From Temperatibacter marinus (GTDB lineage: Bacteria; Pseudomonadota; Alphaproteobacteria; Sphingomonadales; Kordiimonadaceae): a stretch of 64,000 bases of DNA. How positions within the stretch are numbered: position 1 is the first letter of the stretch; the number at the start of each line of letters is the position of its first letter. The translations under genes were made by a program, and so were the position numbers. Below, piece by piece: positions 8,822 through 55,907 of this stretch. Under the pieces are notes generated by a model. It saw only the letters and a list, made by a program, of their open reading frames with translations, searched no databases and was not told the origin of the DNA. The DNA is taken from contig NZ_CP123872.1 in assembly GCF_031598375.1 (NCBI RefSeq), positions 1,488,001-1,552,000 of the forward strand, written 5' to 3'.

Positions 8822-8839
8822 TGGCGCACCCAAGAGGAT
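8822..8839. repeat. 18-bp copy of tRNA-Arg(CCG) 3' end (att-like)
   Basis: The sequence TGGCGCACCCAAGAGGAT is identical to 10584-10601, the last 18 bases (CCA end, discriminator, acceptor stem and part of the T arm) of the tRNA-Arg on the minus strand. Both copies have the same orientation. Duplication of a tRNA 3' end on its downstream side is the usual product of site-specific integration by a tyrosine recombinase. The copy lies two bases after the permease stop and is not part of any complete tRNA. Confidence 0.8.
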
Positions 8840-8917
8840 GAAAATGAGAACTGGATATTGTGCATAAAATCCCACTAGTCTAGAGCGTGAGAGACTTTTA
8901 AATCTACTGCATGAATT

Positions 8918-10489
8918 TTAAAGATAGATTGATATCGTTTTCAGAAGGAGTGATCGATTGATAGGTTTGGTGATATAATCCGACATACCAGACTTTAAAT
9001 ATTTTTCTTTATCACCTGCTAAAGCGTCTGCCGTAACAGCAATGATGGGTGTATTCGAATTTAATCCACTCCCTTTTTTGATTTCTTTGGTTGCTGTAAC
9101 ACCGTCCATCATGGGCATATGAATATCCATCAAGATCAGATCAAATTGACTGCGTTTACATAGATCAACCGCTGCTTTACCATTATTTACCGTTGTTATC
9201 GGGATTTCATCTACCTCGAGAAATTTTTTGAGAATCATCTGGTTGATGGGATTATCTTCTACGATTAGAATACCGTCATTAGAATAGCTGAATTTCACTT
9301 CCTTAAGGCATTGAATTTCATCATTCTGATTGGTTAATTTTGAGGTAGACTCGCTTAAAGGTATTTTGATCTCAAAAGTACTGCCCTTCTTTAATGCACT
9401 CTCTATGGTGATCTCACCTTGTAATAGGGATATTAGTTTTTTTGTGATCGCGAGCCCAAGGCCTGTGCCGCCATAATTTCGAGAAATTGAAGCATCGACT
9501 TGCTTAAAAGCTTCAAAAATATGTTCTTGTTTATCTTTTGGGATGCCAATACCTGTATCGCTGATGGTAATGTTTAATATCGTTTTTCCATTTTCATTTG
9601 AAATAGAAGCATGGATATCGATATGGCCGTCTTGAGTGAATTTTACAGCGTTACCGATAATATTGATCAAAATTTGACGAAGTTTTTGCTCATCACCATC
9701 CAGGTATTGAGGGCATGACTCATCAATAGCTAAATTCAATTCAATTTTCTTTTTCATAGCTGTCGCCGTAAATAATGAGACAGTATCATTAAGTAATGCA
9801 ATTATATTGAATTTTGAAATATCTAACGACATAGCCCCTTGCTCTAAGCGCGATATATCAAGCGTGTCGTTTAAAATATGCAGTAAGTGTTGAGAGGATT
9901 TTAAGGCTGTTTCTAAAAAGTCTTTTTGTTCTTCATTGAGCGGCGTTTTTAGAGCTAATTCAAGCATACCCATAATACCATTCATCGGAGTACGAATTTC
10001 ATGGCTCATAGTTGCTAAAAATTGCTCTTTTACAGCGCGGGCCTCAGCCTCTTTTTTTAAAGCCTCTTTCAGGGCTATTTCTTCACTCATTTCCTTTGAA
10101 ATATCAATATGGATACCAAAAATTTTAAGCGCTTTTCCCTCTTGATCTCGCTCAGTAACCATACCCTTAGCATGGATCCATTTCCAGGAGCCATCCTTAC
10201 ATAGCATTCTGAAGCGACCTTCATATTTATTTATGTCACCTAAAAATGCTCTATCAGCTTTTTCCAGTATTGGCTCTTTATCATCATCATGTGTGAGCTT
10301 TTCCCATGTTGCAAAACCTGAGGGGTATTCATCTTCAGCGTAACCCAGCATTGTGAACCATTCAGAACTATAAATAACATTATTATCAGGAACTGACCAT
10401 TCCCAGAGGCCTACCCCAGAAGCTGCAATAGCTTCTTTCATGAAGCGTTCATTTTGACTTACTTTATTATAATCTTTACTTTTAGTCAT
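8918..10489 (-). CDS. Hybrid sensor histidine kinase (PAS-HisKA-HATPase-REC)
   Basis: A 523-residue soluble hybrid kinase. Domains in order are a PAS fold (about 18-133), a short coiled coil, a dimerisation domain with phospho-acceptor H163 in MSHEIRTPMNG, an ATPase domain (about 265-385, with DTGIGIPKD and GGTGLGLAI boxes) and a C-terminal receiver with phospho-acceptor D455 in LILMDIHMP and the conserved TKP lysine. No transmembrane helix is present, so it senses a cytoplasmic signal. No histidine phosphotransferase or separate response regulator is nearby. It is the only gene between the tRNA-Arg 3' end and the 18-bp copy of it, so it may be cargo of an integrated element. Confidence 0.88.
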   Translation of the reverse strand: MTKSKDYNKVSQNERFMKEAIAASGVGLWEWSVPDNNVIYSSEWFTMLGYAEDEYPSGFATWEKLTHDDDKEPILEKADRAFLGDINKYEGRFRMLCKDGSWKWIHAKGMVTERDQEGKALKIFGIHIDISKEMSEEIALKEALKKEAEARAVKEQFLATMSHEIRTPMNGIMGMLELALKTPLNEEQKDFLETALKSSQHLLHILNDTLDISRLEQGAMSLDISKFNIIALLNDTVSLFTATAMKKKIELNLAIDESCPQYLDGDEQKLRQILINIIGNAVKFTQDGHIDIHASISNENGKTILNITISDTGIGIPKDKQEHIFEAFKQVDASISRNYGGTGLGLAITKKLISLLQGEITIESALKKGSTFEIKIPLSESTSKLTNQNDEIQCLKEVKFSYSNDGILIVEDNPINQMILKKFLEVDEIPITTVNNGKAAVDLCKRSQFDLILMDIHMPMMDGVTATKEIKKGSGLNSNTPIIAVTADALAGDKEKYLKSGMSDYITKPINRSLLLKTISIYL

Positions 10490-10583
10490 TCAAGTTCAGC
10501 CCTGTAATGTAAGCATTTCGACTTAAATTGCTGTGTAGTATAATACATGAATGATACGTTTTTACTATTGCAAAAAGAGAGTA

Positions 10584-10660
10584 TGGCGCACCCAAGAGGA
10601 TTCGAACCTCTGGCCTCTGCCTTCGGAGGGCAGCGCTCTATCCAGCTGAGCTATGGGTGC
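10584..10660 (-). tRNA. tRNA-Arg (anticodon CCG)
   Basis: A complete 77-base cloverleaf on the minus strand. The acceptor stem is GCACCCA/TGGGTGC with discriminator G and an encoded CCA, the D arm is AGCTCAGCTGGATAGAGC, the anticodon stem is CTGCC/GGCAG with loop CTCCGAA (anticodon CCG, reading CGG), and the T loop is GTTCGAATC. Its 3' end is duplicated at 8822-8839. Confidence 0.96.
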
Positions 10661-52149: not shown

Positions 52150-52983
52150 TCATGGCGTTTCCTTTTTATGCATGACACTGTTTGTGCTACCAGTGATGGG
52201 ATAGTGTTGATGTATCAATTCGATAATTTCTTGGCCATATTTTTTTAGTCTAGGTATTTCATGTGAGGTCCGTGAACTCAATGTTTGACTAATCTCTTTA
52301 TAGACATTTGCCATAGCCCTAATAGACGGTAAATCCTGCGTTAGAAGTACAGTATTATTACTGAGCGCTTTTTTGTATAGTGGTCCATCTTGTATACGCG
52401 TATTTGCGTTTACAATATTGCGGTTGGCTTCTCTCACCAGTTCCCGGCTGTTAGGATAATTCATATCTATAATCTTGATCGCTAGGCTAAAAGCTTCGTG
52501 CATATATTGTTCGTCATTAGTATAATCAAGATCAAGATGCCGCGACAGCGCATCATAGTCTGATATTTTTTTGATCAGTTCAGGGCTGGTAATTTTGCGA
52601 ATAGCACCAGAATTTTTAAGCTGATCTAGTGTAGCTCTGTTCCAGCTGTATGGTCTATATCCCGGTGACGTCGTAAATAAAAAGAGATCGAGGTTACTAA
52701 GCTGGTGAAGTGGAATGTCCTTAATATGTTTTGCCAGCATTCGGCCTTTAGTCCCCCTAAGATCGATTTGCTCAGCTACGGGAATTAACATTTCAGCGTC
52801 TTGTTGTAAGTCATTTTCAAGGGCTGAAAGATACTGTTCTATTTGCAATTGCTCGTTTCTTTCATCGTTCCAGTCAGTGACTTGCATACCAAGGAAAATA
52901 CCCGTAACAACCACAAGCATGTCCAGCCCAACGGCAAACCAGTTTTGCTCAGTAACGTGTTTCACAAAGCGACGTAAGATCAT
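52150..52983 (-). CDS. DUF6090-like single-pass membrane protein
   Basis: A 277-residue protein with one N-terminal membrane helix in the conserved setting QNWFAVGLDMLVVVTGIFLG followed by QVTDWNDERN, a pattern seen in the DUF6090 family of marine bacteria. The rest is helical and charged (YLSALENDLQQDAEML and later) and likely lies outside the membrane, on the periplasmic side. No catalytic motif is visible. Function is unknown. It lies just downstream of a decayed integrase gene next to tRNA-Arg, so it may be cargo of the old element. Confidence 0.65.
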   Translation of the reverse strand: MILRRFVKHVTEQNWFAVGLDMLVVVTGIFLGMQVTDWNDERNEQLQIEQYLSALENDLQQDAEMLIPVAEQIDLRGTKGRMLAKHIKDIPLHQLSNLDLFLFTTSPGYRPYSWNRATLDQLKNSGAIRKITSPELIKKISDYDALSRHLDLDYTNDEQYMHEAFSLAIKIIDMNYPNSRELVREANRNIVNANTRIQDGPLYKKALSNNTVLLTQDLPSIRAMANVYKEISQTLSSRTSHEIPRLKKYGQEIIELIHQHYPITGSTNSVMHKKETP

Positions 52984-53069: not shown

Positions 53070-53645
53070 TCGCCCTAACCACTCATGCTGTACATCACGA
53101 GGATATCCATTGCCATATCCCTCCTTACTTTTGCCTTACCTGACATTCTCAGAGTTGATCTATGATATCAGATGGGCATTGCTCCGCCTGCAAACGATCA
53201 CGTAAGTCATGTCACAGCTATGGATGACACAACCCTTTGGCACATAAGCAGCTAGCGACTTGTATAAGGTGGCGCTCGCAGCATTAGTCTTGCAAGAAAT
53301 TTGATCCGTATGCCGTGGAAACGTGAACACATCTTCAACAGCCCTACCTGCTTTGCGGACCTTAACCATGTCCCTACAAATGGTACTTTTCTTTCACTGC
53401 TGGATGTCTTTAGTTAACGTCACAGATAGGGATTTAGGTCGATGTATAGCACCACATTGTCTAAGTGTATATCGTCTATAGCTAGACGCAAAATCTATAT
53501 TAACCTCATACCCGTGCCATTGATCAGATCAACATTCCATCTGATATCATCGTTCACGAGCCGACATTGTTCCTGTTCGGGACCTAATTCATTATCCGAC
53601 GCTTGCCTCTTTAAACTTTGTAGGGCTGGTCCCCTCTTGGAGACT
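53070..53645 (-). pseudogene. Decayed tyrosine recombinase (integrase), C-terminal half
   Basis: Reading the minus strand in several frames gives a clear phage-type integrase catalytic domain in pieces. In order they are NDDIRWNVDLINGTGMRLI, stop TAG (53495-53497), ILRLAIDDIHLDNVVLYIDL, stops TGA (53420-53422) and TAA (53414-53416), LKTSSSERKVPFVGTW, all in one frame; then FTFPRHTDQ through ATLYKSLAAYVPKGCVIHS in a second frame (53369-53160 open); then HDLRDRLQAEQCPSDIIDQ in a third; then GYGNGYPRDVQHEWL in a fourth. The shift after VIHS falls inside the catalytic HxxR box. The N-terminal half is missing. The remnant begins about 30 bases from the 3' end of tRNA-Arg(ACG), the usual position of an integrase in an element inserted there. 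Confidence 0.85.
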
Positions 53646-53675
53646 GTAACAGGATTTGATTGTCGTGAGAGTGAG

Positions 53676-53752
53676 TGGCGCACCGGGGAGGATTCGAACC
53701 CCCGGCCCCTAGATTCGTAGTCTAGTGCTCTATCCAGCTGAGCTACCGGTGC
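53676..53752 (-). tRNA. tRNA-Arg (anticodon ACG)
   Basis: A complete 77-base cloverleaf on the minus strand. The acceptor stem is GCACCGG/CCGGTGC with discriminator G and an encoded CCA, the D arm is AGCTCAGCTGGATAGAGC, the anticodon stem is CTAGA/TCTAG with loop CTACGAA (anticodon ACG, whose A34 is normally deaminated to inosine by TadA), and the T loop is GTTCGAATC. A decayed integrase lies on its 3' side. Confidence 0.96.
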
Positions 53753-53920: not shown

Positions 53921-54433
53921 ATGCAAAATTTTGTAAAACCTATTGTTATTACTGGATTAATTCTGACTCTTTGTGGCTGCGTTGGCTATCAGCATGAATG
54001 GCCAAAATTGACAGATCCACTCCCCAAAAATGTGGAAATGTCAGCGTCTTCGATTGAAATAAAAGGACATCCATCTCCCATAAGAGAGAGTGTCGAGTCT
54101 CTGTCTGCTGTTTCTTTAACGACGGAGACGATTGAAAAACAAGTGCCTGCTCTCACGATGGCCCTGAAGGAAGCCCAGTCAACATTGATGGCGGCTTTGG
54201 CCTTCTATGAAAAAGAACAACCAGAGGAGGCTAAAGAAGTGGCTTGGGGAAGTTTGCAAATTGCCTATACACGTCTTTCACAGCAGTTCAGTAAGCTTGA
54301 AGACCTTATCCGTGCAGTCGAGCGTGGCAACAAGAGCGAGATGTCTTCATTGTTGAAGATGCTTCTCAAACAGCATGAAACAACTCTTGCCTCAATGAAA
54401 TTAGTCAGCCCTTTTGTTCTGCGAAAGAATTAA
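53921..54433 (+). CDS. Small lipoprotein, unknown function
   Basis: A 170-residue protein whose N-terminus (GLILTLCGCVGYQHEWP) has a lipobox ending at C19 or so, so it is lipid-modified and held in the inner or outer membrane. The rest is helical and hydrophilic, with amphipathic stretches (KEAQSTLMAALAFYEKEQPE). No domain is recognised. Its stop lies four bases before the convergent kinase stop. No ribosome binding site is obvious before its ATG. Confidence 0.65.
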   Translation: MQNFVKPIVITGLILTLCGCVGYQHEWPKLTDPLPKNVEMSASSIEIKGHPSPIRESVESLSAVSLTTETIEKQVPALTMALKEAQSTLMAALAFYEKEQPEEAKEVAWGSLQIAYTRLSQQFSKLEDLIRAVERGNKSEMSSLLKMLLKQHETTLASMKLVSPFVLRKN

Positions 54434-54437
54434 GGCA

Positions 54438-55907
54438 CTAGCTGTCGGGATTAATCGGCAGATAGATAAGGAAGTGACTGCCCTCTTGAGAAGTTTCTTC
54501 CAATTCAATGGTGCCTTTATGGGCTTCGACCATTTCTTTAGCGATGGCTAATCCTAGGCCCGTTCCGCCTTTTGTCTTACGTGTCGTACTCACAAAGGGT
54601 TTGAATAATTTTGCTTGTGCTTCTTCATTGAAACCGGGCCCTGTGTCGCAGAGCCTAATCTGATGATAATCATCTACAGGCTTGGCTGCGACGGTGATCG
54701 ACCCTTCGACTTCCATCGCTTCTAAGCTGTTTTTCACTAGATTATAAATGACACGAAACAACTGATCTGGATCCGCTGGAATGAGATAATCTATGGGTAC
54801 TGCGTTATGAAATTCCACCGGAGAATCGCCCATGTTCAGGCTATCAGCAATTTCACTAGCTAGGTCATGTAAATTGACCTCTCTAAAAACAGGATCTGGT
54901 TCTTTGGCAGATCCATATTTAAGGGTGCGGGTGCATAAATCAATGGCGCGAGTGAGGGCCCGCTCCAGACGCCCTGTAATTCGCGTTATTTTGGGGTCTT
55001 CAACGCGAGCGAGGGTGGAAGAAGCAAGCGAGGCAGTGGTGAGCATGCCGCGCAGATCGTGGTTGATCTTACTGATTGCTTCCCCTAATTCTGCTAAGCG
55101 TTGTTTTTGCTTTAGCGACTGTTGGACGTGTTGCTGACTGCTCCGCAATTCTCTGGATACAACGCCAATTTCATCGCGTCGCTTGCTATAAGGAAGAACC
55201 GCTTTGGGATCTTCTGAGTTTGATTGAAAGCGTACAATGTTTTTCTTCAGCCGCCGCATGGGCCTAACAACCACCCAGTGCAGGCATAGATAAACAAGCA
55301 GGCCTGTGGAAAAAGAAATAAGTGCGGATAGGATAATCAAGTTGTTTGAGTGAGCAATCATGGCCTCATAAAGCTCTTCTTCGTAGACGGTCATCTCAAT
55401 CCACATCGTGTCTTTGAGAATTGGCTCACCAATCACACTGATATAACGATCCCCTTCTGCAGAGAAGGTTTCCATTGCATCCGCGATCAAACTACCGATG
55501 GCTGCCCCGCGGATGTCGTATACTGTTTCAACATCTGAAGGCATTTGATCAAAGCCGAGCATGCGACTTTGGTCATTCCTGCGCATGACAATCGAAACAA
55601 CACCCGAGGCCGCAAGCAGGTTTCGTTCTAGCTCTGGCGTTACCCGATTCATAGGGCTAGCTTCTAAACTCATGGCCGCGATTTGGGCGGCCTTAAGGGT
55701 TTGACTCAAATAGGTTTCTCTAAAAGTTGCTATGGCAGGGAAATAGACAAAGGCTTCTACAAGCATCACAAAAAGTACTGTGACGATAAGAATCTTTGAT
55801 CTAAGACTGGATCGAATAGGCCGGTATCGTTCTGGCATCGCCTTATATAAACCTTTTGAGGGCACTTTAAGTGCCGCATACTTACTAACAAAAAGTGATT
55901 CTTCCAT
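54438..55907 (-). CDS. Membrane sensor histidine kinase
   Basis: A 489-residue kinase. Two transmembrane helices (about 38-60 and 188-210) enclose a periplasmic sensor region; a HAMP-like linker (VVRPMRRLKKNI) follows. The phospho-acceptor is the histidine in AISKINHDLRGMLTTA, an HDLR-type H box different from the common HExxR/HELR form. The ATPase domain has NLVKNSLEAM (N box), CDTGPGFNEE and KGGTGLGLAIAKEMVE. No response regulator is adjacent. It is divergent from rpmH and may have no operon partner. Confidence 0.85.
   Translation of the reverse strand: MEESLFVSKYAALKVPSKGLYKAMPERYRPIRSSLRSKILIVTVLFVMLVEAFVYFPAIATFRETYLSQTLKAAQIAAMSLEASPMNRVTPELERNLLAASGVVSIVMRRNDQSRMLGFDQMPSDVETVYDIRGAAIGSLIADAMETFSAEGDRYISVIGEPILKDTMWIEMTVYEEELYEAMIAHSNNLIILSALISFSTGLLVYLCLHWVVVRPMRRLKKNIVRFQSNSEDPKAVLPYSKRRDEIGVVSRELRSSQQHVQQSLKQKQRLAELGEAISKINHDLRGMLTTASLASSTLARVEDPKITRITGRLERALTRAIDLCTRTLKYGSAKEPDPVFREVNLHDLASEIADSLNMGDSPVEFHNAVPIDYLIPADPDQLFRVIYNLVKNSLEAMEVEGSITVAAKPVDDYHQIRLCDTGPGFNEEAQAKLFKPFVSTTRKTKGGTGLGLAIAKEMVEAHKGTIELEETSQEGSHFLIYLPINPDS

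Follow-up and report, generated by a model that had tools for sequence, protein, structure and literature searches.

The window that we analysed is a stretch of 64,000 nucleotides from Temperatibacter marinus, which contains an intact tRNA-Arg(ACG) gene on the minus strand (53676–53752; ARAGORN and Rfam). Many relatives have a syntenic tRNA with 97–100% identity to this one, whose 3′-terminal ~17 nt form the presumed attachment site. Directly 3′ of the tRNA and on the same strand (from ~53641 down to ~53070) lies an integrase pseudogene (53070–53641, minus strand), which was delineated by frameshift-tolerant alignment, tblastn-type matches, and a PF00589 scan, and which corresponds to the C-terminal catalytic half of a predicted DUF6538-type tyrosine recombinase. 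The alignment is confident from 53575 downward and weaker between 53576 and 53641. The pieces of the catalytic domain follow one another in the order ...EQEQCRLVNDDIRWNVDLINGTGMRLI, stop, ILRLAIDDIHLDNVVLYIDLNPYL, stop, R, stop, LKTSSSERKVPFVGTW..., then AVEDVFTFPRHTDQISCKTNAASATLYKSLAAYVPKGCVIHS, then HDLRDRLQAEQCPSDIIDQL, stop, and finally SKEGYGNGYPRDVQHEWLGR. They are spread over three minus-strand frames and not four, as a sequence-only reading of this DNA had counted. The remnant contains four in-frame stops (53497, 53422, 53416, and 53151), one more than that reading had listed; the pair located 6 bases apart (53422 and 53416, at positions that should hold W and P/R) was described correctly. 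The reading had also called for at least three frameshifts, one of them inside the catalytic HxxR box, and three were found (at ~53363/53344, at 53213 within the HxxR box, and at ~53150–53132).

The identity of the remnant was established with a frameshift-tolerant local alignment that was written for it, with the intact relative L045 as the reference. The score was 355, and the maxima of the null, which comprised 25 Markov shuffles and 25 random segments of the window, were 47 and 49 (33 for the opposite strand). That non-coding DNA happened to resemble an integrase, a possibility that we regard as practically nil, is ruled out by this difference in score. A whole-chromosome Pfam scan independently marked the same site (PF00589, E = 0.003, 3 stops), and the match to the PF00589 catalytic domain, weak for the raw frames, became strong once the frames were joined. 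As the sequence-only reading had proposed, a tyrosine-recombinase gene has decayed at the 3′ end of tRNA-Arg(ACG), and the frameshift-tolerant search against integrases that it had recommended returned the ordered pieces as matches.

The residue aligned to 53575 lies 101 nt from the 3′ end of the tRNA in the window, compared with 676–770 nt in intact relatives. Therefore, ~600 bp of the original gene, comprising the start codon, the DUF6538 domain, and the core-binding domain, have been lost from the remnant at the junction where the catalytic half that remains meets the 3′ end of the tRNA (53576–53675, minus strand). PF20172, the profile of the DUF6538 domain, had no match at the remnant locus, and the earlier claim that only the C-terminal half is left was thus borne out. 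Within this half, the catalytic residues R-K-HxxR-H/W-Y are not intact in any single frame: the HxxR box is disrupted by the frameshift at 53213, and the GGW that follows DIIDQL is replaced by a stop/frameshift. Among the 57 near-invariant residues that could be tested in the remnant (columns with a conservation of 90% or more in the intact members), 41 are kept and 16 are changed, and 14 more fall in gaps, stops, or frameshift zones. When intact members were left out singly, they lost 0–6 near-invariant residues. Errors in the alignment may account for part of the losses close to frameshifts, yet the remnant still shows a large excess. It is a pseudogene and not a recoded gene. A gene that is still functional through programmed frameshifting or recoding would be in agreement with the partial conservation of the pieces, the only finding in its favor. 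However, such a gene would have to accommodate three frameshifts, four stops, a broken HxxR box, the absence of the N-terminal half and start codon, and the change of 16 of 57 near-invariant residues, and we consider it extremely improbable.

The joined pieces match intact integrases in other members of the class with identities of up to 50% and E values down to 5.6e-40, and the integrase of a relative from the same order matches the remnant with an E value of 2.3e-25. One such integrase was found among plasmids, a protein of a Ruegeria megaplasmid whose annotation names a DUF6538 domain. Phage records contained no match to the remnant, a scan of genome contigs returned one weak Sediminibacillus match only, and a literature search for DUF6538 found no paper. 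PF20172 and PF00589 were both present in all five relatives scanned, and from its catalytic half the remnant would likewise be affiliated with the DUF6538 type.

The intact loci share a common layout. A tRNA was found within the fetched flank at 20 of the 27 loci examined, and it was on the same strand as the integrase at all 18 loci that were measured. At these 18 loci, the first Met of the integrase frame is located 55–89 nt from the tRNA 3′ end, with the sole exception of L007 (5 nt). Two intact members adjoin tRNA-Arg(ACG), and the same-order relative adjoins tRNA-Arg(CCG). In L140, an intact member at tRNA-Arg(ACG), the 3′ end of the tRNA is repeated exactly over 17 bp at a distance of 13.3 kb. 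The segment between the repeats encodes a primase/DUF5906 protein. An ABC sugar transporter and a levanase-like protein are also suggested there, solely by the translations. The primase was found neither in the window nor at the remaining intact loci, the majority of which are too short for its absence to be judged. The original element of the window may have been of the L140 kind.

The conserved marker 5′ of the tRNA is a histidine kinase gene (54438–55907, minus strand), whose synteny with tRNA-Arg(ACG) holds in all 20 relatives compared, each from a genus other than that of Temperatibacter marinus. Between the kinase and the tRNA lies a small lipoprotein-like gene (53921–54433, plus strand), which is kept in about half of the relatives; it is syntenic in L110, L111, L114, L116, L122, L123, L126, and L127, with an identity of only ~28–31%. 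The 3′ side of the tRNA is hypervariable, and the first genes there differ between genomes among the 20 relatives. In the window, the remnant is adjoined on this side by a gene of a multi-copy family (52150–52983, minus strand), the relatives of which are scattered, with several paralogues per genome, and were not found directly beside tRNA-Arg(ACG) in the genomes compared; the gene is possibly former cargo. In one genome, ~17 paralogues of this family are clustered (G034:C1:53775-66515), with a conserved N-terminal segment and a variable remainder.

Other tyrosine or serine recombinases are located 3′ of tRNA-Arg(ACG) in four relatives. In G022, the tRNA and a ~50-bp duplicate of its 3′ end enclose a 5-kb segment with an arm-binding-type tyrosine recombinase, in G020 a tyrosine recombinase is found 95 nt from the tRNA, and in G002 and G035 serine recombinases abut it. 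The latter two proteins (L115 and L121) are large serine recombinases with Resolvase and zinc ribbon domains, and their frames terminate at the 3′ end of the tRNA; the two genomes represent different families of the order, and the tRNA-Arg(ACG) target is common to serine and tyrosine recombinases. In five relatives, a GNAT gene is located 3′ of the tRNA. Its homologue in Temperatibacter marinus is 1.1 Mb away, and therefore this genome has a rearranged 3′ flank.

The 5′ side of tRNA-Arg(ACG) is core, and its 3′ side is a hotspot at which integration has recurred across the family. The earlier description of an island insertion is supported, with intact relatives occupying exactly this position beside their tRNAs, but the surroundings are core on the 5′ side only. 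The comparison of the locus in close relatives that had been suggested yielded the recombinases of the four relatives but neither an intact orthologue nor an empty site: at the syntenic tRNA of the relatives, the place of the remnant or an intact orthologue is taken by other genes or other recombinases, and the search for an empty site through the GNAT neighbor found none with native flanks.

A tRNA-targeted element is expected to have an integrase 3′ of a same-strand tRNA, which is present here, and a direct repeat at its far border, which was not found: searches with a 20-mer (up to 3 mismatches) and a 17-mer (up to 2 mismatches) detected no second att copy in the window or the chromosome apart from the other tRNA-Arg. 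The borders of the island itself (distal att and cargo) are no longer definable. The lack of a second att copy and of synteny between the 3′ flank of the remnant and the relatives would also fit a fragment that came in already broken, by homologous recombination or on some other element, as opposed to a relic of integration at tRNA-Arg(ACG). However, its strand and order match those of intact members beside tRNAs, and in relatives this tRNA is a hotspot of integration; we regard such an arrival as quite improbable.

The remnant is, very probably, the fossil of an integrative element that was once inserted at tRNA-Arg(ACG) and was later truncated and decayed. The missing distal att copy and the displaced GNAT homologue count against this reading. 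We infer the integration itself, the sequence of the later losses, and what the element originally contained as follows. An element with a DUF6538/Phage_integrase tyrosine recombinase would have entered the tRNA-Arg(ACG) gene at its 3′ end through site-specific recombination, and the insertion would have restored the tRNA, as the anatomy of intact relatives suggests. A later deletion of ~600 bp would have taken the start codon, the DUF6538 domain, and the core-binding half. In the absence of selection, stops, frameshifts, and missense changes would have built up, and loss or rearrangement would have affected the distal att together with most, if not all, of the cargo.

An exact 18-bp repeat, TGGCGCACCCAAGAGGAT, is present in the window at 8822–8839 and 10584–10601, the sequence being the 3′ end of tRNA-Arg(CCG) (10584–10660, minus strand). 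The 1.76-kb segment bounded by the repeats (8822–10601) is a minimal island-like segment without an integrase, and its sole gene encodes a PAS/HisKA/response-regulator hybrid kinase (8918–10489, minus strand). It is conceivable, though rather unlikely, that DUF6538 integrases are a family in the class that uses the 3′ ends of many different tRNAs as targets and mobilizes cargo islands, and that the now dead copy at tRNA-Arg(ACG) served this segment in trans. Elsewhere in the genome, a 701-aa frame (L005/L143, G000:C1:~3158225–3159706, minus strand) has weak Phage_integrase (17.6 bits) and DUF6538-like (14.2 bits) matches and starts within ~160 bp 3′ of tRNA-Met(CAT) on the same strand; it is possibly an intact, divergent large integrase.

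Compared with DUF6538 recombinases (PF20172 and PF00589; for example, WP_011537162.1 of Ruegeria sp. TM1040, L045, L046, L059, and L061), the remnant is similar in catalytic-domain sequence (41–51% identity), in strand, and in its place 3′ of a tRNA, but it lacks the N-terminal half and carries four stops and three frameshifts. Integrative islands that target tRNAs and have a tyrosine recombinase include the cargo-carrying tycheposons described for Methylophilaceae (PMC10872708). The window locus shares with them the tRNA and the tyrosine recombinase at the border, and the intact DUF6538 element L140 carries primase/DUF5906 and apparent sugar-uptake genes. However, the window is devoid of an island body and a distal repeat, and membership is not claimed. 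The locus also places tRNA-Arg(ACG), beside a conserved histidine kinase block, as a recurrent hotspot for several unrelated recombinases in the group, and it illustrates in detail how an integrase riddled with frameshifts is not shown as one gene when genes are called in single frames. Integrase pseudogenes at bacterial tRNA genes are truncated, frameshifted scars of lost islands. The remnant resembles them with no essential difference and is a real yet ordinary scar of gene traffic in the history of this genome.
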